NCBI GenBank assembly: GCA_022794035.1
Contig: JAAWDX010000014.1
Coordinates: 1-64,000, forward strand
Origin: Lachnospiraceae bacterium
GTDB taxonomy: Bacteria > Bacillota > Clostridia > Lachnospirales > Bianqueaceae
Length of the DNA: 64,000 nucleotides
Direction of reading: 5' to 3'
How positions within the stretch are numbered: position 1 is the first letter of the stretch; each line of letters opens with the position of its first letter. The notes under the pieces were generated by a model, which saw only the letters and a list, made by a program, of their open reading frames with translations, searched no databases and was not told where the DNA came from. Position numbers and translations under genes: made by a program. Positions 15,245 through 28,796 of the stretch are shown in pieces.

Positions 15245-17341
15245 TTATAGATAATACAGGAGCTGCGTATAGGTGGGCAGCGGCCAATCGGCGGCAGCCA
15301 CCAGCTGCTCAGCCTGATCGGCATCAGCGCGGAGCGACGCCATAGCAGGCAGTACAGTATCCCGATAATAGGCGGCCTGCTCAGAGAGAGAGGGCAGCTG
15401 CTGACTGCTCTGCAGAGAAGATTCGAGCGCCTCCAGCTTGCTCAGGAAGGAGGCCGACAGGTCAGAAAGCTGACGGATCAGCGAGAGCTCCGAATCGCAG
15501 GTGAGCGAGGCGGAAAGAGCCTTTTTGTCCAGAGCCGCCTTGGTGAGCTTATGCGTGTACTGCAGCACAGCCGGAAGGATCTGATGGCGCGCCATATCCA
15601 CCATAATGCGCCCTTCGATGAGAATCTTTTTGCAGTATTCCTCCATGAGGATTTCATAGCGGGAATGGATTTCAGAGACCGTAAAGATTTTATGCTTGGT
15701 GAACAGCGCTATGTTTTTCTGGGCAATAAAGGGGGCGATTGCCTCTGCCGTACTGGAGAGGTTCAGAAGACCGCGGCGCTCTGCCTCCTGCACCCATTCT
15801 TCGGAATAGTTATTGCCGTTAAAGATGATGCGGCGGTGCGCGGCGATATTTTCTTTGATCAGCTGCTGCAGAGCGGCATTAAAATCATCCGCGGCCTCTA
15901 GCGCATCGGCAAATTCCGTTAAAGCCTCTGCCACAATCGTGTTTAAAATGATGTTGGGGCCGGCGATGGAAAGGTCGGAGCCCAGCATACGAAACTCAAA
16001 TTTATTGCCGGTAAAGGCAAAGGGCGAAGTGCGGTTGCGGTCGGTTGTGTCTTTGGGGAAGCGGGGCAAAATATGGACGCCCACCTTCATGACCTCGCTG
16101 GAACGCGCATCATAGCTGGAGCCCTGCTCGATAGAATCCAGAATGCCTGTGAGCTCATCGCCTAAAAACATAGAGACAATCGCGGGAGGCGCCTCTTGTG
16201 CGCCGAGCCGGTGGTCATTGCCGGCGCTGGCGACCGACATGCGCAGCAGATCCTGATACTCATCCACTGCCTTGATCACAGCCGTTAAGAAGAGGAGAAA
16301 TTGTGCGTTATCCTGCGGAGAATCGCCCGGCTCCAAAAGATTCATTCCGGTATTGGTGGAGAGGGACCAGTTATTATGTTTACCGCTTCCATTTACGCCG
16401 GCAAAGGGCTTTTCATGCAGCAGGCAGGCCAGACCGTGGCGGCGCGCTACCTTTTTCATCGTTTCCATCGTCAGCTGATTATGATCGGTGGCTAGATTGG
16501 TATTGGTAAAAATGGGAGCCAGCTCATGCTGCGCAGGCGCTACCTCATTATGCTCTGTTTTGGCATAGATGCCAAGCTTCCAGAGCTCTTCATCCAGCTC
16601 CTTCATAAAAGCAGCCACGCGCGGCTTGATACTGCCAAAATAGTGGTCGTCCAGCTCCTGGCCTTTGGGAGGCATGGCGCCGAACAGCGTACGGCCGCAG
16701 AGGCGCAGATCCTCACGCTGCGCATACAGATCCAGATCAACCAAAAAATATTCCTGCTCTGGACCAACAGTGGTGATCACGCGTGATACATCGGTGTGGC
16801 CGAATAGACGCAGGATGCGAAGCGCCTGCTTGTTGAGCACCTCCATAGAGCGCAGCAAAGGCGTTTTTTTATCGAGGGCCTCGCCGCTGTAAGAATAAAA
16901 AACAGTAGGGATGCAAAGCGTCCCGTCTTTGATGAATGCATAAGAAGAAGGATCCCAGGCGGTATAGCCCCTAGCTTCAAAGGTGGCGCGCAGGCCGCCG
17001 GAGGGAAAGCTGGAGGCATCGGGCTCGCCCTTAACAAGCTCCTTGCCGCTGAACTCCATGATCACGGCGCTGTCGCCCTGCGGCGTAATGAAGCTGTCGT
17101 GTTTTTCAGCAGTAATGCCGGTCATGGGCTGAAACCAATGAGTAAAATGCGTGACGCCCTTTTCGATAGCCCAATCCTTCATTGCGTTGGCAACAACGTT
17201 AGCAATGTCCGGATCCAGATGCTTTCCTAATTCAATAGTTCGGCGCAGCGCCTGATAAGTGGTTTTGGGCAGGCGTTCCTTCATGACACGATCATTAAAA
17301 ACCATCGTACCAAAGGTTTCGGGTACAGATACAAAGTTCAT
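15245..17341 (-). CDS. glnN: Type III glutamine synthetase
   Basis: 698 residues, the usual length of the dodecameric GSIII family and far longer than GSI. The N-terminal GSIII block ([21 protein letters not shown]), the catalytic core [44 protein letters not shown] and [14 protein letters not shown], plus the long helical C-terminus, are all present. It makes glutamine from glutamate, ammonia and ATP. It is divergent from glnA. Its own transcript begins with an ANTAR-type hairpin and terminator (17376-17426), so expression should depend on the antiterminator encoded at 18935-19504. Confidence 0.95.
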
Positions 17342-17375: not shown

Positions 17376-17426
17376 CATATAAAAAGGCGCGGCAGAGAAA
17401 ACCCTGCAGCGCCTTTGCTGTATCTG
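17376..17426 (-). ncRNA. glnN leader: ANTAR-type hairpin overlapping a terminator
   Basis: On the - strand the predicted transcript starts near 17426 and enters the hairpin CAGC-AAAGGC-GCTG (17420-17407). Its hexaloop has A at position 1 and G at position 4, the ANTAR recognition pattern. The loop and right arm are also the left arm of a terminator: AAAGGCGC pairs with GCGCCTTT, with an inner GCAGGG/CTCTGC helix, then TTTTTATAT (17416-17376). The two structures exclude each other. Only one hexaloop hairpin is visible, whereas described targets carry two. Confidence 0.75.
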
Positions 17427-17432
17427 CCAGAG

Positions 17433-17461
17433 AGTATAGCGATAATTTGCAGGATTGTCAA
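17433..17461 (-). promoter_or_regulatory. glnN promoter
   Basis: On the - strand, consensus TTGACA (17456-17461), a 17-bp spacer and TATACT (17433-17438), placing the start near 17426, just before the leader hairpin. Confidence 0.85.
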
Positions 17462-17489
17462 TAGAAAATTGCAAAAAATAGAAAAAGCG

Positions 17490-17518
17490 TTGACAGGACA
17501 AAACGAAGGTGCTATAAT
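17490..17518 (+). promoter_or_regulatory. glnA operon promoter, perfect consensus
   Basis: TTGACA (17490-17495), exactly 17 bp, TATAAT (17513-17518). Such a strong promoter suggests that control lies at the terminator in the leader rather than at initiation. It is back-to-back with the glnN promoter, the two -35 boxes being 28 bp apart. Confidence 0.9.
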
Positions 17519-17527
17519 ACCAGCCAG

Positions 17528-17586
17528 TAGACAAGGACGTCTATGGGTAGGCCTTTGGAGGAAGGGCACTCATAGACGCTTTTTTT
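17528..17586 (+). ncRNA. glnA operon leader: ANTAR-type hairpin overlapping a terminator
   Basis: The hairpin TAGAC-AAGGAC-GTCTA (17528-17543) has a hexaloop with A1 and G4, the ANTAR pattern. Its right arm is shared with an 11-bp terminator stem (17538-17548 with 17568-17578) followed by seven T residues (17580-17586). Binding of the ANTAR protein would hold GTCTA in the first hairpin and prevent termination. A second small hairpin, CCTT-TGGAGG-AAGG, sits in the terminator loop but lacks A1/G4. Confidence 0.8.
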
Positions 17587-17607
17587 ATAGATGAAATGGA
17601 GAAAGCG

Positions 17608-18909
17608 ATGAAACAAACCGAACAGGAGCTGCTGCAGTTTGTGCAGGAGCATGATGTGAAATTTGTCAGATTGGTTTTTTGTGATTTGTTTGGACGGCAG
17701 AAAAATATTACGATCATGGCGCAGGAGCTGCCCAAAGCCTTTGCCTATGGCATTTCCTTTGACGGCTCCGCCGTCCTCGGATACGCGACTGTGGAGTGCT
17801 CGGATTTATTTTTGGTGCCGGATTGTTCCACCGTCGTCATTCTGCCATGGGAAGAAGAAGCCGGCCGTATGGTGCAGATGTTTTGTGATATTAAAAGGCC
17901 GGATGGCAGCGATTTGGAGGAGGCGCCCAGAACGATTCTGAGAAAAGCCGTGCAGCGTGCCGCTAAGCTGCGGTATATCTGCCGCATTGGGACAGAATGT
18001 GAGTTTTATCTGTTAAAAACAGAAGAGGGAGCGCCTCTTTTAAAGCCGATGGATCAGGGAAGCTATGCGGATACCACGCCGCTTGATCAGGGCGATTTAA
18101 TCAGAAGAGAAATCTGTACAGCGCTGGAGGCGCTTGGCATGAAGCCGGAAAGCGCCCATCATGAGAGAGGCAAGGGCCAGAATGAAATCGATTTTCGCTA
18201 TTCCGATGCGCTCACGGCGGCCGACAGCTTTATGACCTTCAAGTGGGTGGTCAAATCCGTTGCCCATCGGCACCAGCTTTTTGCCAGCTTTCTGCCCAAG
18301 CCCTTTTGGGAGGACAGCGGCAACGGGCTGCATATCAATCTTTCTCTGGCGCAGGGCGCGCAAAATCTGTTTCAAACGGGAGATCAGCATAACCCCTATG
18401 CGGAGAGCTTTATTCAGGGAATTTTGGATCATGCCGCCGAGATCACAGCCTTTTTGAATCCCATCAACAATTCCTATTGCCGGCTGGGCTGCTTTGAAGC
18501 GCCGCGCTATGTCACGTGGTCGCATCAGAACCGGTCACAGCTGGTGAGGATTCCGGCCTCCTCCGGCGAATACAGCCGCATGGAGCTGCGCTCAGCGGAT
18601 CCGGCCTGCAATCCCTATCTGGCCTTTGCGCTGCTGATTCATGCCGGCATGGAAGGTGTGGAGCAGGGAAAGAAACTGGAGCCGCCCTGCAATCGTAATT
18701 TATATGAGGTTAAAGAAGAAGAGGGACTTCCGCTTTTGCCGCGCAATCTGCGGGAGGCCATAGACATAGCAAGGGAAAGCGAGTTTATCAAAAAGGTACT
18801 GCCCGAATCGCTGCGGCAAAAATATTTTGCGCAGCAGGAGAGATGGTGGCGGGAATACGGCAATGAAAATCTGAAAGAAGAAATTGCCGCGAATCTGTTA
18901 ATTTATTAA
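17608..18909 (+). CDS. glnA: Glutamine synthetase type I (short, non-adenylylated form)
   Basis: 433 residues from the ATG at 17608, chosen because GGAGAAAGCG precedes it; the ATG at 17596 has no ribosome binding site. Motifs: N-terminal DLFGRQKN, GTECEFYLL (metal-binding Glu), FLPKPFWEDSGNGLHINLSL (ATP and metal loop), NPINNSYCRL and APRYVTWSHQNRSQLVRIPA (substrate-binding Arg). The length is that of the GSI-alpha group, without the adenylylation loop of GSI-beta. It makes glutamine at the head of an operon in which three later products (CarA, PyrG, PurF) spend it. The leader has an ANTAR-type attenuator. Confidence 0.95.
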   Translation: MKQTEQELLQFVQEHDVKFVRLVFCDLFGRQKNITIMAQELPKAFAYGISFDGSAVLGYATVECSDLFLVPDCSTVVILPWEEEAGRMVQMFCDIKRPDGSDLEEAPRTILRKAVQRAAKLRYICRIGTECEFYLLKTEEGAPLLKPMDQGSYADTTPLDQGDLIRREICTALEALGMKPESAHHERGKGQNEIDFRYSDALTAADSFMTFKWVVKSVAHRHQLFASFLPKPFWEDSGNGLHINLSLAQGAQNLFQTGDQHNPYAESFIQGILDHAAEITAFLNPINNSYCRLGCFEAPRYVTWSHQNRSQLVRIPASSGEYSRMELRSADPACNPYLAFALLIHAGMEGVEQGKKLEPPCNRNLYEVKEEEGLPLLPRNLREAIDIARESEFIKKVLPESLRQKYFAQQERWWREYGNENLKEEIAANLLIY

Positions 18910-18934
18910 AGAAATAGATAAGGAAGAGCAGCGC

Positions 18935-19504
18935 ATGGAAAAGGTTTTACTGGTCTCTCACGGAGAAAAAAATCGGGATATTTTCACGCAGCTGTTGGCT
19001 GAGTGCGGGCTGACAGAGGTTTATATAGCCAAAAACACAGTGCAGGCCAGACGGCTTCTGGCAGAATATGAGTTTGCGCTTGTGCTGATTGTCTCGCCGC
19101 TGTCGGAGGAATATGGCTGTGAGGTTGCTAAAACGGCAGCGAAAACAACGGCCGGCGTGATGCTGATTGTGAAAAAGGATCACGCGGAGGAGATGACAGA
19201 GAAGATGGAGCCGGAGGGCATTTTGGTATTCACACCGGGAATGGGCAAGGGCTTTTTCCGCCATGCGGCGAAGCTGCTTCTCGCTGTGCATCAGCGGCTT
19301 GTCAAAACCATGCCGCAGCAGGCCAAGCTGGAACAGAAAATCGAAGATATCCGACTGGTAGGCAGAGCCAAATGCCTGCTGATTCAGTATGAAGGCATGA
19401 CAGAGGAGGGCGCGCACCGCTACATTGAAAAGGAGGCCATGAACCGGCGCATCACGCGGCGCGAAATGGCTGAGACCATATTGCAGAGCTATGAAATAGA
19501 ATAA
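18935..19504 (+). CDS. ANTAR-domain RNA-binding antiterminator with pseudo-receiver
   Basis: 189 residues. The C-terminal ANTAR helices (about residues 125-187: LEQKIEDIRLVGRAKCLL, MTEEGAHRYIEKEAM, ITRREMAETIL) carry the conserved RAK.LL and EA..IEK.AM pattern. These domains bind hexaloop hairpins in nascent leaders and block terminators. The N-terminal domain has receiver-like strands but no acidic pair (VLLVSHGEK) and no phospho-acceptor Asp (LVLIVSPLS), so it is probably controlled by a ligand or partner rather than phosphorylation. It follows glnA by 25 bp. The matching hairpins ahead of glnA and glnN are its likely targets. Confidence 0.88.
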   Translation: MEKVLLVSHGEKNRDIFTQLLAECGLTEVYIAKNTVQARRLLAEYEFALVLIVSPLSEEYGCEVAKTAAKTTAGVMLIVKKDHAEEMTEKMEPEGILVFTPGMGKGFFRHAAKLLLAVHQRLVKTMPQQAKLEQKIEDIRLVGRAKCLLIQYEGMTEEGAHRYIEKEAMNRRITRREMAETILQSYEIE

Positions 19505-19516
19505 ACGGAGGAAATT

Positions 19517-20620
19517 ATGAAAACAGTGTATCTATTACTTGAAAACGGCGCATGCCTCGAGGGGCAAGGCTTTGGCGCCCCCATAAACGGCGACGGCGTC
19601 CTCGGCGAAGTCGTCTTCACCACGGCGATGACCGGCTATCTGGAAAGCATTACCGACCCCAGCTACTACGGTCAAATCCTCGTTCAAACCTTTCCGCTCA
19701 TCGGAAACTACGGGGTGATTCCCAGCGACTTTGAAAGCGCAGCCCCCCATCTAACTGCCTATATCGTGAATGACTGGTGTCAGATACCCTCCAACTTTCG
19801 GAGTGAGGGAGATCTTGACACCTTTTTTAAGGCCCAAAATATTCCTGCCGTCTGCGGCATTGATACGCGGTATCTCACCAAGCTGCTGCGTGAGCAGGGC
19901 ACGATGAACGGATACCTCAGCTATGAAAAGCCGGAGTATCAGACGCTTCAGGAGCCGCTTGCCGGCTATCGCATTCAAAATGCCGTCCAAAATGCGGCCA
20001 GAGGCTATTTTAAGGAATATCCTTGTCCCAATGCCCGTTATCATGTGGCCGTATGGGACTTCGGCGCCAAAGAAAACATCATCCGCGAGCTCACAAAGCG
20101 CGGCTGCTGGGTCACGCTAGTGCCGCCGGATGCATCGGCGCAGGAAATCAGCCGCCTGCCGCTCGACGGCCTGATGCTGTCCAACGGCCCTGGTGATCCG
20201 GCTGAAAACACAGCCATCATCAGCGAGCTTCGTCGGCTCTGCCACGAAACCCGCCTGCCGATGTTCGGAATCTGCCTGGGACATCAGCTCCTAGCCCTCG
20301 CGCACGGCGCGAAAACAGGCAGGCTCCCCTATGGACATCGCGGTGCTAATCAGCCGGTTAAGGGGCTGGATTCGGGGCGCATCTATATGACCAGTCAAAA
20401 TCACGGATATGCGGTAGAAAGCTCCAGCCTGCCGCCGGAGGCGCAGGAAAGCTTTATCAATCTAAACGACGGCAGCTGCGAAGGGATCACCTATACAGAT
20501 CATCCGGCTTTTTCCGTGCAGTTTCATCCGGAAGCAAGCGCCGGGCCGCTGGACACTGGATTCTTATTTGACCGCTTTTTAGAAAAAATCGAGGAGGAAA
20601 AGCAACATGCCGCTGAGTAA
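19517..20620 (+). CDS. carA: Carbamoyl-phosphate synthase small chain (glutaminase)
   Basis: 367 residues. The N-terminal CarA-specific domain (about 1-170: GQGFGAPINGDGVLGEVVFTT, TDPSYYGQILVQTFPLIGNYG) precedes a class I glutamine amidotransferase domain. This has the nucleophile in MFGICLGHQ and His/Glu in SVQFHPEAS. It releases ammonia from glutamine and passes it to the large chain. The ribosome binding site is GGAGGAA. It overlaps the start of carB-dapF by 14 bp. The large chain is not a standard CarB, so this subunit pairs with a fusion partner. Confidence 0.95.
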   Translation: MKTVYLLLENGACLEGQGFGAPINGDGVLGEVVFTTAMTGYLESITDPSYYGQILVQTFPLIGNYGVIPSDFESAAPHLTAYIVNDWCQIPSNFRSEGDLDTFFKAQNIPAVCGIDTRYLTKLLREQGTMNGYLSYEKPEYQTLQEPLAGYRIQNAVQNAARGYFKEYPCPNARYHVAVWDFGAKENIIRELTKRGCWVTLVPPDASAQEISRLPLDGLMLSNGPGDPAENTAIISELRRLCHETRLPMFGICLGHQLLALAHGAKTGRLPYGHRGANQPVKGLDSGRIYMTSQNHGYAVESSSLPPEAQESFINLNDGSCEGITYTDHPAFSVQFHPEASAGPLDTGFLFDRFLEKIEEEKQHAAE

Positions 20621-23600
20621 AACCATTCATAAGGTGCTGGTGATCGGGTCAGGCCCCATTGTGATCGGGCAGGCCGCCGAATTTGACTATGCAGGCACGC
20701 AGGCCTGCCGCGCATTAAAAGAAGAGGGCCTGGAGGTGGTGCTGGTCAATTCCAATCCGGCCACCATCATGACCGATCATGCCATGGCCGATCATATTTA
20801 TATCGAGCCGCTGAATCTGGAGACGGTCCAGAGAATCATCGAAAAGGAGAAGCCCGACAGCCTGCTTTCCACCCTTGGTGGCCAGACGGGGCTCACGCTC
20901 TCGATGCAGCTTGCGAAAAGCGGCTTTCTGGCGCAGCATCATGTGCAGCTTCTGGGAGCGGATCCGGAAACCATCGATAAGGCGGAGGACCGGCAGCGGT
21001 TTAAGGATACGATGGAGGCCATCGGCGAGCCGGTGATCCCTTCGGCGGTGGTGAATACGCTGGAGGAGGCGGAGGCCTTTGCCGCGCAGATTGGCTATCC
21101 GGTGATCGTGCGGCCGGCCTTTACGCTGGGCGGATCAGGCGGCGGCATTGCGCAGGATGAGAGGCAGCTGCGGGAGATTGCGGAGGCAGGGCTGCGTCTG
21201 TCGCCGATTACGCAGGTGCTGGTAGAGCGATGCATTGCCGGCTGGAAGGAGATCGAATTTGAGGTCATGCGCGACGGCAGCGGCAACTGCATTACCGTAT
21301 GCTCTATGGAGAATATGGATCCGGTGGGGATCCATACCGGTGATTCGATCGTGGTTGCGCCGGCGCTCACGCTGGCGGATAAGGAATATCAGATGCTGCG
21401 CTCGGCGGCGCTGAATATCATTCAGGCCATGGGCATTGAGGGGGGCTGCAACTGCCAGTTTGCCCTTCATCCGGGCAGCTTTGAATATGCGGTGATCGAG
21501 GTGAATCCGCGGGTGTCGCGCTCCTCGGCGCTGGCTTCGAAGGCAACGGGCTATCCGATTGCACGCGTGGCGGCAAAGATTGCGCTGGGCTACCGGCTGG
21601 ATGAGATCACCAACGAGGTTACGGGCAAAACGAAGGCCTGCTTCGAGCCGGCGCTCGACTATGTGGTGGTTAAGCTTCCCAAATGGCCGTTTGACAAATT
21701 TGTGTACGCAGACCGCAGGCTCGGCACGCAGATGAAGGCGACCGGCGAGGTAATGGCCATCGGAAAGAGCTTTGAAGAGGCACTGCTCAAGGCCGTGCGC
21801 GGCGCGGAGATTGCGCAGTATGATCTAAACAGAGAGAGGATGCGCACTTTGACGGATGAGGCCCTGCAGGAAAAGCTGCTGGCGCAGGATGATGAGCGGC
21901 TCTTTGCCCTCTATGAAGCGCTGCGCCGCGGCGCCAAAACGAGCGAGCTGCATGCGCTGACGGGGATTGATCTATGGTTTTTGGAAAAGCTGCTGCATAT
22001 TCAGAGGCTCGATGAGGCGATGCACCTCCAAGAGGTGGATCAGGCGCTGTACCGTACGCTGAAAAAATGGGGCTTTCCGGATCAGGTGATCCCGGCCGGC
22101 AGCTGGCAGCATGAGCCGGCGGCCTATCAGATGGTGGATACCTGCAGCGCGGAATTTGCCGCGCGCACGCCCTACTTTTACGGCGCGCACGGCTGCTGCG
22201 ACGAGGCCGGCGCTTTTATTGCGGCGCGGCCGCAGAAAAAGCCGGTGGTCATGGTGCTTGGCTCCGGGCCGATTCGCATTGGACAGGGCATTGAGTTTGA
22301 CTATGCCTGCGTGCACTGCGTATGGGCGCTGCAAAAAGCAGGCTATGAGGTCGTGATTGTTAACAACAATCCGGAGACCGTGTCTACGGATTTTAATACG
22401 GCCGACCGGCTCTATTTTGAGCCGCTTACGCCGGAGGATGTGCTGGATATCGCAGCCATTGAGCAGCCCGTCGGCGCCGTGGTCTCGTTTGGCGGTCAGA
22501 CAGCGATCAAGCTTACCCAGTGTTTGGCGGAGCATCAGATCCCGATTTTAGGGACGCCGCCCGACAGCATCGACGCGGCGGAGGACCGCGGTCGCTTTGA
22601 CGCGCTGCTGGAAAGTCTGGGCATCAAACGGCCTGACGGGCGGGTCGTGCACACTGAGCAGGAGGCGCTTGCCGCGGCAAAAGAGCTGGGCTATCCGGTG
22701 CTGATGCGGCCGAGCTATGTGCTGGGCGGCCAGAATATGATCATTGCCTTTGCCGATGCCGATATCGAAGAATATATGAAGATCATCCTCGCGCAGGAGG
22801 GAGAAAATGAGGTGCTGATCGATCAGTACCTGATGGGGACGGAGCTGGAGGTGGATGCGATCTGCGACGGCGAAACAGTCCTGATCCCCGGAATTATGGA
22901 GCATATTGAGCGGGCCGGTGTGCATTCGGGCGATTCCATTGCCGTCTACCCGGCCTGGAACGTATCGGCAAAGCAGACAGAGCGCCTGATTGAGTATTCA
23001 ACGCAGCTGGCGCTTTCCCTGCAGACCAGAGGGCTGATCAATATTCAATATGTGATCTATGAGGATCAGATCTATGTGATCGAGGTCAATCCGCGCTCCT
23101 CGCGCACGGTGCCCTATATCAGCAAGGTGACGGGCGTGCCGATGGTGGAGCTGGCCAGCCGCATCATGGCCGGCGAGACGCTGCGCTCAATGGGCTATCA
23201 GGGCGGCCTCTATCCGCATGGCCAGCAGTACGCGGTCAAGGTGCCGGTGTTTTCCTTTGAAAAGCTGCACAACGTGGACACGCAGCTCGGTCCGGAGATG
23301 AAATCCACCGGCGAGGTGCTGGGCGTGGCGCGGACGATGGAGGAAGCGCTCTATAAAGGCCTCGTGGCCGCCGGATATGAGATGAAGAAGCAGGGCGGCG
23401 TACTGATCACGGTGCGCGACACCGACAAAAAGGAGATCGGCGAGATCGCGCGCCAGTATGCCAAGCTGGGCTTTGCACTGTTTGCGACAGAGGGAACGGC
23501 CCGCGTGCTCAGGGAGCAGGGGCTGACGGCGCAGCCAGTAAAGAAGATTCATGAGGGCGCAGATAACACAAGAGCGCTTCTGGAGAGCGGCCGCATCCAG

Positions 23601-24635
23601 TACATCATTTCGACCTCTGCCAAAGGCCGGATCCCGGCGAGGGACAGCGTCAAAATCCGCCGCAAGGCGGTTGAACTGGGCATCCCCTGCCTGACATCGC
23701 TCGATACGGCGAGAGCGCTGGCCGGCAGCCTGCAGAGCCGCTACCGCGCATACAACGTGGAGCTGGTGGATATGAACCGGCTGCCGCACGAAAGCCGCAG
23801 GAGAGCCTTTGTGAAGATGCAGGGCTGCGGCAATGACTATATCTATTTTGACTGCTTTGAGCAGCCGCTCGAAAATCCGGAGGCGCTCAGCGTGCAGCTT
23901 TCGCAGGAACACTTTGGCATCGGCGGCGACGGCATCATCCTGATCGAACCCTCGGCGGTCGCAGACGGGCGGATGCGGATCTTCAACAAGGACGGCAGTG
24001 AGGGCCGCATGTGCGGCAACGGGATCCGCTGCGTCGGCAAATACTTATACGACAGCGGAAGGGTGAAAAAAACGGAGCTTACGGTCGAGACAAAGAGCGG
24101 CATTAAGCGGCTTTCGCTGGAGGTGTTTGACGGCCAAGTGCTGAGCGTGACGGTGGATATGGGACCGGCGGTGCTGGCGCCGGAGCAGATCCCAGTGCGG
24201 CTGGAGGGGCCGCAGGTGGTGGACCGACCGGCTCTGGTAGGCGGCCGCGAGCAGCGGATCACCTGCGTGTCGATGGGCAATCCGCACTGCGTGATCTTTG
24301 AAACGGATGTAGAAGGGCTGGCGCTGGAAGAACGGGGCGCCTGCGTGGAGACGGATCCGCTGTTTCCGGAGAGCGTGAACACGGAATTTGTACAGGTGCT
24401 GGATGCGCACACGCTGCGCATGCGGGTTTGGGAGCGCGGCAGCGGCGAGACATGGGCATGCGGCACTGGAGCCTGCGCGGCGGCTGTGGCAGCGGTTTTG
24501 AATGGATATTGTGCGAAAAATGAAGAGATTACCGTGCATCTGCGCGGCGGCGATCTGAAGATCCGCTACACCGACGAAACGGTGTACATGACGGGCGCGG
24601 CAGTGACGGTATTTACAGGGGAGGTTGCAATCTGA
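20607..24635 (+). CDS. carB-dapF: Fusion of carbamoyl-phosphate synthase large chain (CarB) and diaminopimelate epimerase (DapF)
   Basis: 1342 residues in one uninterrupted frame. Residues 1-about 1065 are a complete CarB: first synthetase half ([21 protein letters not shown], about 1-400), middle domain, second half ([21 protein letters not shown], from about 550), and the MGS allosteric domain (about 935-1050) ending [13 protein letters not shown]. DapF begins at once with [16 protein letters not shown]. It runs to the end with both catalytic cysteines, Cys1136 in [10 protein letters not shown] and Cys1285 in [10 protein letters not shown], so both parts look active. CarB makes carbamoyl phosphate for pyrimidines and arginine; DapF converts LL- to meso-diaminopimelate. 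DapL, which makes LL-DAP, is encoded two genes later. An internal ribosome binding site and GTG at the junction may give free DapF. A frameshift fusing two genes by sequencing error is unlikely because there is no spare sequence at the joint. Confidence 0.93.
23799..23813 (+). promoter_or_regulatory. Possible internal translation start for free DapF
   Basis: AGGAG (23799-23803) lies 7 nt before an in-frame GTG (23811-23813, Val1069 of the fusion). Starting there would give [10 protein letters not shown], missing only about two residues of a normal DapF N-terminus. The codons could be constrained by the protein alone, so use as a start is inference. Confidence 0.4.
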
Positions 24636-26254
24636 TGGCGGCAAAATATATTTTTGTAACGGGCGGCGTGGTATCCGGGCTGGGAAAGGGCATTACGGCG
24701 GCCTCACTGGGGCGGCTTTTGAAGGCGCGGGGCTTTAAGGTGGCCGCACAGAAGCTGGATCCTTATATCAATATTGATCCCGGCACGATGAGTCCCTATC
24801 AGCACGGAGAGGTGTTTGTGACGGAGGACGGCGCGGAGACCGATCTGGATCTGGGGCATTATGAGCGCTTCATCGACGAAAACCTGAATCAGTATTCTAA
24901 CCTGACAACCGGCAAGGTATACTGGAATGTGCTGAATAAGGAGCGGCGCGGCGAATATCTGGGAGAGACCATTCAGGTGATTCCGCATATTACCAATGAG
25001 ATTAAAGCCTTTATTTATTCGGTGCAGAAGAAAACAGATGCCGATATCGTGATCACGGAGATCGGCGGCACCACCGGCGATATCGAGTCGCAGCCGTTTT
25101 TGGAGGCCATCCGTCAGGTCGGACATGAGGTGGGCTATGAAAACCGGCTGTTCATCCATGTGACACTGGTGCCCTATCTCGAATCCTCGGGCGAGCATAA
25201 GTCCAAGCCCACGCAGCATTCCGTGAAGGAGCTGCAGTCATTTGGCATCATGCCGGATGTGATCGTGGCGCGCTGCGATCAGAGGATTGATGCGCCGGTG
25301 CTGCAAAAGATCGCGGCCTTCTGCAATGTTAAGCCGGACTGCGTGATCGAAAATCTGACGCTGCCGGTGCTGTACGCTGCACCTATGATGCTGGAGGAGG
25401 CCGGACTTGCACAGATCGCGCTCCGGGAGCTGCATCTGGAGGCGCCGCATGCGCCGGAGCTTAGCGGCTGGCAGGCCATGCTCGGCCGCATCGAAGGCTG
25501 CCGGCAATCGGTGCGCATTGCGCTGGTAGGCAAATATGTCAAGCTGCATGATTCTTATCTTTCGGTGAGCGAGGCGCTGAAGCACGGCGGCTATGAGAGC
25601 GGCGTCAGGGTCGAGGTCGACTGGGTGGACAGCGAGCAGATCACGCCGCAGACGGCAGCCGCGCTGCTAGGCGGAGCCGATGGCATCATTGTGCCCGGCG
25701 GCTTTGGCGGGCGCGGCATCGAAGGGATGATCGAGGCCGCCCGCTACGCCAGAGAGCAGCATATCCCCTATTTCGGCATTTGCCTGGGCATGCAGATCGC
25801 CGCCATCGAATGGGCGCGCCATGTGCTCGGCTATGCGGATGCCAATTCCCGTGAATTTGACGAGGCCAGCCAGCATCTGGTCATCGATCTGATGCCCGAC
25901 CAGCAGGGGAATCTGCCTAAGGGCGGCACCATGCGGCTGGGAGCTTATCCGTGCAGGGCTGCCGCAGGCAGCAAGCTGCTCATGGCTTATGGGCAGGACG
26001 AAATCGCCGAGAGGCACCGGCACCGCTATGAATTTAACAACGTCTTCCGCGAGGCCTTTGAGGCCTCCGGCGCCGTGTTTAGCGGCCTATCGCCGGACGG
26101 GCGGCTGGTGGAGGCGCTGGAGCTGCCGTCACATGATTTTTATGTGGGCGTGCAGTACCATCCGGAGTTTAAGAGCCGGCCCAACAAGGCGCATCCGCTA
26201 TTCAGAGAATTTATCCGCGCCGGCATCCGCTATCAGGAAGGGAGAGCAAAATGA
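24635..26254 (+). CDS. pyrG: CTP synthase
   Basis: 539 residues, the family's normal length. The N-terminal synthetase domain begins [16 protein letters not shown] (ATP loop) with [14 protein letters not shown] and [11 protein letters not shown]. The C-terminal class I glutaminase domain has [11 protein letters not shown] (nucleophile) and VQYHPEF. It aminates UTP to CTP using glutamine. Its ATG shares a base with the carB-dapF stop (TGATG), with GGGGAGG just upstream, so it is tightly coupled. It is the second glutamine consumer in the operon. Confidence 0.97.
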
Positions 26255-27438
26255 AATTAAATCATCAGTATGAGAAATTAGAGGAAAGCTATTTGTTTTC
26301 AACGATTGCGGGCAAGGTGGCCGACTTTCAGAAGCAAAATCCGCAGGCCAGCATCATTCGGCTGGGGATCGGCGATGTGACGCGGCCGCTGTGCACGTCG
26401 GTCGATATGGCGCTCGTGGAGGGCGCGCAGGAGCAGGGAAAGGCAGAAAGCTTTCATGGCTACGGGCCTGAGCAGGGCTATGCGTTTTTGCGGGAGGCCA
26501 TTGCCGCATATTATCAGACGCAGCTGCAGGCAGATGTGAAAACAGAGGATATTTTTGTGAGCGACGGTGCGAAAAGCGATCTGGGCAATATTTTAGATCT
26601 GTTCAGCGCCGATAATACCGTGCTGATCCCGGATCCTGTATATCCGGTGTACCGCGATACCAACGTGATGGACGGTCGGCGTATTGTCTATCTGCAGGCG
26701 ACAAAGGAAAACGGCTTTTTGCCGATGCCGCCGGCCGGCCAGCAGGCGGATCTGATTTATCTGTGTTCGCCCAATAATCCCACTGGCGCGGTGTACAGCC
26801 GGGAGCAGCTGGCAGCGTGGGTCGCCTATGCGCTGGAGCAGAAGGCGGTCATCCTGTTTGACGCGGCCTATGAGGCCTTTGTGCAGGAGGGCTATCCGCG
26901 TAGCATTTTTGAGATTCCGGGCGCCAGAGACTGCGCCATTGAGTTCTGCTCGTTATCCAAGACGGCCGGCTTTACCGGCACGCGCTGCGGCTATACGGTG
27001 GTGCCGCAGGAGCTTAGCAGAGAAGGCATGCGGCTGCATGCCATGTGGCTGCGCCGCCAGATAACCAAGTTTAACGGCGTGTCCTATCCGGTGCAAAGAG
27101 CAGCGGCGCAGGTGTTCACGCAGGCGGGCATGATGGGATGCCGGGCGAATCTGGCAGTGTATCAGGAGAATGCGCGGGTCATCGCGGAGACGCTCGATCA
27201 GATGGGCATCTGGTACACGGGCGGCGTGCATTCACCGTATATCTGGATGGAGTGCCCGGATCAAATGACCTCTTGGGAGTTTTTTGATGACTTGCTGGCC
27301 AAAACGGGCATCGTGGGCACGCCGGGCAGCGGATTCGGCCGAAACGGCGAGGGCTTCTTCCGGCTTACTGCCTTTGGCAGCGTAAAGGATACCCGGGAGG
27401 CCATGCGGCGGCTGAAGAGCGTATATGGTGAAGCCTGA
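26251..27438 (+). CDS. dapL: LL-diaminopimelate aminotransferase
   Basis: 395-residue fold-type I PLP enzyme. N-terminal [10 protein letters not shown] and [12 protein letters not shown] are DapL hallmarks. The PLP lysine lies in [15 protein letters not shown], and NNPTGAVY and DAAYEAF are further cofactor contacts. It converts tetrahydrodipicolinate to LL-DAP with glutamate as donor, bypassing the succinyl or acetyl route. The product is the substrate of the DapF domain encoded two genes upstream. ATGA overlap with pyrG and TGATG with purF show tight coupling. Confidence 0.93.
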
Positions 27439-28796
27439 TGCGGAAAATCAATGAGGAGTGCGGCGTTTTTGGAGCGTATCAGGTGGAAGATGCGGCTTCG
27501 GCTGTGTATTTTGGCCTGCACAGCCTGCAGCACCGCGGGCAGGAGGGCGCCGGCATTGCGGTGAGCGACGGCAAAGCGATTGCTCTGCATAAGGGCGCGG
27601 GGCTGGTGACGGAGGTGATGGATGCGGCGCATCTAAGGCAGCTGGGCGGCGTGCATGGGATTGGGCATGTGCGCTATGCGACGGAGGGCGGCGCGGAGCC
27701 GGAGAATATCCAGCCGCTGATTGCGCGGGCGCAGATCGGCAGCCTGGCCGTGTGCCATAACGGGCAGATTGTGAATGCGGCGAAGCTGCGGCTGGAACAG
27801 GAGGAAAAGGGACATATTTTTCACGGCACCAGCGACAGCGAGATTATCCTGCATCTGATCCAGGGGCAGAAGGGGCCGCTGATGGAGAAAATCAAAAAGG
27901 CCTGCCGGCAGCTGGAGGGGGCGTTTGCTTTTTTGATTCTGACGGACCGGAGCCTCTATGCGATCCGCGACCGGCATGGGCTGCGGCCGCTTTCGATCGG
28001 CTATTACGGAGACGGCTATCTGATCAGCAGCGAGACCTGCGGCTTTGATGCGGTGGGTGGCGTTTTTTGGCGCGATGTGGAGCCGGGCGAGGTGGTGAAG
28101 TTTTCGCAAAAGGGGATTGAGTTCTGCTATTACACCGAGGAAATCGAGCAGAGGCTGTGCAGCATGGAGCACATCTACTTTGCGCGCCCTGACAGCAATC
28201 TGGACGGGCTTAACGTGCATACAATGCGCAAAAGGACAGGGCGCCTATTGGCGCAAAAGGACGAAGGCACCTTGGAGGCCGATATGGTTGTGGCGGTGCC
28301 GGATTCGGCTATGTCGGCGGCCAGCGGCTACAGCGAGACGAGCGGACTGCCGCTGGAGATGGGGCTGATCAAGAACCGCTATGTGGGACGGACCTTCATC
28401 GAGCCCACGCAGCAGCAGCGGGAGATGGGCGTGCGCATGAAGCTTTCGGTGAACCGGAGAGTGGTAGAGGGCAAACGGGTTGTCCTGATCGATGATTCTC
28501 TGGTGCGCAGCACGACAGCGCGGCGGATCATTGCGCAGCTGCGCAGTGCCGGCGTGAAGGAGGTGCATCTGCGGATTGCAGCGCCTGAGTACCGCTATCC
28601 GTGCTTTTACGGCGTGGACACGGCTACGCGCGAGGAGCTCATTTCGGCGCAGATGGACCCGGAGGAGCTGTGCGCCTATCTGAAGGCGGATTCTTTAAAA
28701 TTTTTAACGGTGGAGGATCTGAAGAAAGCGTATGGCAGCGACCGCTTTTGCTTTTCCTGTTTCACGGGAGAGTATGTAACAGCGCTTTACAAATAG
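27438..28796 (+). CDS. purF: Amidophosphoribosyltransferase
   Basis: 452 residues. [12 protein letters not shown] has the N-terminal nucleophile Cys8 after a short propeptide. The class II glutaminase domain (LQHRGQEGAGI, HNGQIVNA) is followed by the PRPP-binding phosphoribosyltransferase domain (VVLIDDSLVRSTTARRII). The C-terminal FCFSCFTGEY gives the cysteines of the Bacillus-type 4Fe-4S enzyme. First committed step of purine synthesis and the third glutamine user of the operon, which it ends. No clear terminator follows; the next gene's promoter overlaps its 3' end. Confidence 0.95.
   Translation: MRKINEECGVFGAYQVEDAASAVYFGLHSLQHRGQEGAGIAVSDGKAIALHKGAGLVTEVMDAAHLRQLGGVHGIGHVRYATEGGAEPENIQPLIARAQIGSLAVCHNGQIVNAAKLRLEQEEKGHIFHGTSDSEIILHLIQGQKGPLMEKIKKACRQLEGAFAFLILTDRSLYAIRDRHGLRPLSIGYYGDGYLISSETCGFDAVGGVFWRDVEPGEVVKFSQKGIEFCYYTEEIEQRLCSMEHIYFARPDSNLDGLNVHTMRKRTGRLLAQKDEGTLEADMVVAVPDSAMSAASGYSETSGLPLEMGLIKNRYVGRTFIEPTQQQREMGVRMKLSVNRRVVEGKRVVLIDDSLVRSTTARRIIAQLRSAGVKEVHLRIAAPEYRYPCFYGVDTATREELISAQMDPEELCAYLKADSLKFLTVEDLKKAYGSDRFCFSCFTGEYVTALYK

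Follow-up and report, generated by a model that had tools for sequence, protein, structure and literature searches.

Predicted twin divergent single-hexaloop attenuators in the leaders of two glutamine synthetase genes and a linked NitR-like ANTAR protein in a Lachnospiraceae bacterium

Two glutamine synthetase genes of different types lie back to back in the window (the whole stretch of DNA that was analysed, 64,000 nt), which raises the question of whether both answer to one regulator and by which RNA structures it would act. On the evidence given below, it is very probable that the two leaders are divergent attenuators, and that both are read by an ANTAR protein of the NitR-like type, whose gene belongs to the glnA operon.

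Organization of the Divergent Locus

The gene glnN (15245–17341, minus strand) encodes a 698-aa type III glutamine synthetase (Pfam GSIII_N, 5e-82), while glnA (17596–18909, plus strand; start codon ATG at 17596 or 17611) carries the Pfam domains Gln-synt_N and Gln-synt_C and is closest to type I, as TIGR00653 is its top NCBIfam match, yet under the cut-off of that model. These assignments agree with the initial annotation, which had proposed two different glutamine synthetases, and the 254-nt gap between the two genes holds two divergent promoters. The nitR-like gene for a 189-aa protein (18935–19504, plus strand; Pfam ANTAR, 1e-15) starts 25 nt past the end of glnA, and since it is the only ANTAR gene in the 2.3 Mb genome, it is the likely antiterminator gene that had been placed within the glnA operon. 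The gene nitR is presumably linked to glnA in Clostridium saccharobutylicum as well.

The remainder of the apparent operon, with adjacent or overlapping genes, comprises carA, a carB::dapF fusion, pyrG, dapL and purF (19517–28796, plus strand), giving seven genes in all (17596–28796), which bring glutamine synthesis together with nucleotide steps that use glutamine and with two genes of the lysine/DAP pathway. Gene spacing and a similar order in two relatives (L358, L359) point to cotranscription from glnA to purF, in which case nitR would regulate its own synthesis. Carbamoyl-phosphate synthase, CTP synthase and PurF consume glutamine, and the predicted operon might therefore couple glutamine supply and use. 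The carB::dapF gene (20607–24635) encodes a 1342-aa protein joining the carbamoyl-phosphate synthase large subunit to diaminopimelate epimerase; an assembly error is unlikely, because a congener (L358) carries the same fusion as a 1348-aa frame. The genome also has a second type III glutamine synthetase (L316, G000:C2:3600-5200) in another gene context, and neither the motif nor an attenuator was found at this second glnN copy.

Promoters, Hairpins and Terminators of the Two Leaders

Both promoters are close to the consensus, as had been proposed: the glnA promoter TTGACA-17-TATAAT (17490–17518, plus strand) matches at 12/12 positions and the glnN promoter TTGACA-17-TATACT (17433–17461, minus strand) at 11/12, and promoter-like sites number three against 0.9 expected from shuffled sequence. 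Just past each promoter, the leader opens with a hairpin whose hexaloop has A at position 1 and G at position 4 (A1/G4) and is closed by a C:G pair. In the glnN leader this hairpin is CAGC-AAAGGC-GCTG (17407–17420, minus strand; −4.2 kcal/mol), and in the glnA leader it is GTAGAC-AAGGAC-GTCTAT (17527–17544, plus strand; −5.0 kcal/mol), so that the loops are those that the initial annotation had picked out. The glnN hexaloop stem has just 4 bp and is not the optimal fold of the isolated 42-nt 5′ segment.

Each hairpin is overlapped by an intrinsic terminator. The glnN terminator (17381–17416, minus strand; −21.8 kcal/mol, z −5.51) ends in a T5 run at 17385–17381, and its 5′ arm includes the hexaloop 3′ arm, while the glnA terminator (17535–17586, plus strand; −24.4 kcal/mol, z −5.75) pairs 17538–17548 with 17568–17578 and ends in a T7 run at 17580–17586. 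A simple terminator scan reported neither of them, whereas folding reveals both and bears out the shared arm that had been proposed. Because the hexaloop 3′ arm and the end of the loop also form the terminator 5′ arm, the two folds are mutually exclusive in both leaders. By folding, the terminator beats the hexaloop in free RNA on both sides, which fits an attenuator that needs help for readthrough. Rfam searches at gathering and relaxed thresholds returned no relevant family and no riboswitch match for these leaders.

The NitR-like ANTAR Protein

The 189-aa protein has a C-terminal ANTAR domain (PF03861, 57.7 bits against a cut-off of 27.3), while NCBIfam has no model for it. Its predicted fold (AlphaFold2, mean pLDDT 92.8) consists of a receiver-like N-terminal domain, a long helix or coiled coil and a three-helix ANTAR bundle, and the nearest solved structures are Rv1626 and EutV, the best PDB matches, and also AmiR. 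Among 93 aligned family members, the phospho-acceptor position is Asn in 71 and Asp in 10, being Val in the window protein, and the first position of the acidic pair is acidic in none of the relatives; the window protein therefore does not have the combination of phospho-acceptor Asp and acidic pair that marks EutV-type phosphorylation. The EutV residues that contact G4 or plug the loop (K149, E160 and M172) are retained in the NitR-like family, the position of EutV Y164 is His in 93/93 members, and that of R142 is not retained, while the adjacent R140 is nearly invariant. Judging from the sequence and the modelled fold, the protein probably binds hexaloops yet is not switched by phosphorylation. 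A receiver without a phosphorylation site implies that a partner protein or a ligand probably conveys the signal, a role that AmiC has for AmiR, and glutamine synthetase itself is a candidate for this partner.

Conservation of the Attenuators

The glnA leader of a congener (L017) keeps the hairpin as GTAGAC-AAGGGA-GTCTAT, and two other species of the source's own family (L018, L019) keep it in both divergent leaders. The initial annotation had tied its proposal to conservation, and other genera indeed have the pair of hairpin and terminator in front of their glnN and glnA orthologues. Twin divergent leaders recur outside the source's genus, and the single-hexaloop design recurs in many Clostridia. 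In three loci of further genera (L035, L036, L037), hairpin and terminator stand on both sides of the gap, where glnN is opposed by a divergent gene for a glutamate-synthase-like amidotransferase. In 80 named Clostridia loci, most of which have the glnA-ANTAR gene pair, ACAGC-AAAGGC-GCTGT or a near variant occurs in 13 of 15 divergent glnN leaders, and 9 of 13 divergent glnN/glnA pairs have the motif on both sides, with Clostridium cuniculi, Sedimentibacter saalensis and Fusibacter paucivorans among the species.

The attenuator rule was run alike for each of the 16 base combinations possible at loop positions 1 and 4. For the 15 divergent glnN leaders of named Clostridia, it found A1/G4 in 10 and any other class in at most one. 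The contrast is weaker for glnA leaders (A1/G4 in 8 of 71, other classes at most 4), most of which gave no attenuator, perhaps because glnA lies inside a longer operon in those Clostridia. Weight is placed on this combined rule since hexaloop counts taken without the terminator barely separate A1/G4 from other loops at glnA. A finer division into 256 classes, by loop positions 1, 2 and 4 and by the closing pair, put C(AAnG)G at the top in the glnN leaders of ANTAR-positive genomes (27, followed by 13, with a class mean of 1.8).

The motif also follows the regulator. It is present at glnN in 45 of 90 ANTAR-positive against 1 of 21 ANTAR-negative genomes (Fisher 1e-4), as split by PF03861, under which some genomes without a NitR-like protein hold other ANTAR proteins, and the association holds within families (permutation p 0.00015). 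In the sole ANTAR-negative genome with the motif (G011), glnN sits close to a contig end, and the assembly may therefore have missed an ANTAR gene. Compensatory changes in the stems fill 44 cells against 15.4 after shuffling, in sites that had been selected to pair.

Alternative Explanations and the Number of Hexaloops

Ordinary leader terminators might happen to hold an A..G hexaloop, and a hexaloop on a stem of at least four pairs is indeed frequent by chance within 450 nt. However, the layout of hairpin, terminator and promoter is kept across many families with compensatory stem changes, and the controls with 16 and 256 loop classes contradict a chance origin, which leaves this explanation with a negligible probability. 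It is also quite improbable, if less so, that the attenuators are read by another factor, such as a feedback-inhibited glutamine synthetase, an RNA-binding protein or a metabolite, with the ANTAR protein as a bystander. Such a factor would account for the absence of the motif at glnN in half of the ANTAR-positive genomes, but the loop bases are those that mark ANTAR targets, the motif goes with the presence of ANTAR even within families, no Rfam riboswitch matches, and the gene for the genome's sole ANTAR protein lies beside the leaders.

A further question is whether these are genuine ANTAR targets working by the canonical mechanism of two hairpins (P1 and P2, joined by a short linker), with a degenerate second hexaloop missed by the pairing rules. 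The ANTAR targets that have been described carry a pair of hexaloops (PMC3369931); EutV can bind either hexaloop singly, but antitermination needs both, and altered spacing abolishes it (PMC8934654). From the EutV-RNA structure, its authors took a single hexaloop as the new minimal motif for binding, and they raised the questions of why a pair is required and how important lone hexaloops are (PMC8934654). The leaders of the window carry one hexaloop each, a point that goes beyond the initial annotation. A candidate for a degenerate second one does lie in the glnA terminator loop (GAG-g[AAGGGC]a-CTC, with a G.A mismatch closing AAGGGC), and in some relatives a second A1/G4 hexaloop is evident (L032, ggaaaac-AAGGGT-gttttcc; the glnA leaders of L018 and L019), but the terminator loops of glnN and gltB are too short for a second hairpin. 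Over 65 attenuator sites, a set that contains a handful of likely false ones, second A1/G4 hexaloops are not enriched (11 sites, where the 15 other loop classes average 9.4), and a P1-like hairpin lies upstream at 4. The stem starts a median of 11 nt past the −10 box, hence a few nucleotides after the expected start, with no space left for a P1 hairpin. The canonical mechanism is thus unlikely here, although it is the strongest of the alternatives. Rather, it is more likely than not that one hexaloop right after the transcription start suffices for ANTAR antitermination, as a distinct and widespread class of switch that would be missed by dual-hairpin searches and would work with a phosphorylation-independent ANTAR protein.

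The gltBD Leader and the Predicted Regulon

A covariance model (R2) built without any sequence from the source organism's family ranked the glnN hairpin first in the genome (24.0 bits) and a site upstream of gltB (G000:C5:87667) second (23.2 bits), with the next match at 18.0; the E-values of the top two, 0.046 and 0.074, are not significant on their own. The glnA site, with its unusual loop AAGGAC, was missed by the same search of the source genome. The gltB leader has its own promoter, the hairpin AGAAC-AATGGC-GTTCT and a terminator of −22.1 kcal/mol, and the site lies 60–70 nt upstream of a gene whose 1503-aa product is a complete glutamate synthase; next comes a gene that was named gltD-like by inspection of its sequence. 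This gltBD operon (L357, G000:C5:82000-88200), which the initial annotation did not include, is a predicted third target of NitR with a single-hexaloop attenuator, and since both top matches sit in the leaders of glutamine synthetase (GS) and glutamate synthase (GOGAT) genes, the two enzymes form one predicted regulon.

In relatives, hexaloop attenuators were also seen upstream of purF-like genes (L332, L339) and a glmS-like gene (L355), all named by eye, and these sites suggest that NitR may control glutamine-consuming steps too. Another match in the source genome (C8:39744) was rejected, having the loop AAAGGG, a weak terminator and an ABC-type permease gene 396 nt downstream, and many matches in relatives were set aside as having no terminator nearby and resembling coding sequence.

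By default, both promoters would fire and the terminator would end the majority of transcripts before they exceed some 60 nt. Under nitrogen limitation, a NitR dimer would bind the single A1/G4 hexaloop once the 5′ end of the RNA emerges, and the bound hexaloop would hold the arm required by the terminator, letting the polymerase read through into glnN on one side and glnA-nitR-carA-carB::dapF-pyrG-dapL-purF on the other. The third attenuator, before gltBD, would place GS and GOGAT under one protein, and readthrough into nitR would amount to positive autoregulation. In this scheme, we infer the binding of NitR to the leaders, and take the direction of its effect and the nitrogen signal from known ANTAR systems.

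Comparison with Known Systems

Control of nitrogen genes by ANTAR proteins is not new, as NitR of C. saccharobutylicum and coexpression in Clostridium thermocellum are already known. Going by the sequences, the new points are the promoter-proximal design with a single hexaloop, the divergent twin on two types of glutamine synthetase and the wide conservation; a literature search covering open-access and a few subscription journals found no description of these points. Natural single-hexaloop attenuators on central nitrogen genes offer a ready test system for the question of one hexaloop versus two, and there would be additions to the ANTAR regulons predicted for Clostridia, gut species among them. 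Moreover, given the degenerate receiver, one may ask by what route NitR senses nitrogen status.

In C. thermocellum, the ANTAR gene of the Clo1313_2030 cluster is coexpressed with GS-GOGAT genes, and the available portion of that report contains no leader analysis (PMC4676874). The predicted ANTAR regulons of Desulfotomaculum include the gene of glutamate synthase and further nitrogen genes as targets, but they came from a dual-hairpin model, among whose output single-hexaloop leaders are not expected (PMC3369931). A review reports that in C. saccharobutylicum NitR acts by antitermination to induce GS/GOGAT genes on nitrogen limitation (PMC6316151). It resembles the system predicted here in the ANTAR protein, the genes and the mode of control, whereas the present locus adds a divergent glnN of type III and a leader with one hexaloop, and the review describes no hexaloop architecture. 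Pseudomonas aeruginosa AmiR (1qo0) likewise combines a receiver-like domain with ANTAR and has His at the G4-stacking position, but it is controlled by AmiC and acts on amidase genes. The EutV protein and eut leaders of Enterococcus faecalis (PMC3369931, PMC8934654) have in common with the window the ANTAR fold and an A1/G4 hexaloop that excludes a terminator; K149, E160 and M172 are common to both proteins, while Y164 of EutV is His here. The eut leaders carry two hexaloops, both of which are needed, and EutV is activated by phosphorylation, whereas the leaders described here carry one hexaloop each and belong with a NitR-like protein that has no phospho-acceptor Asp.
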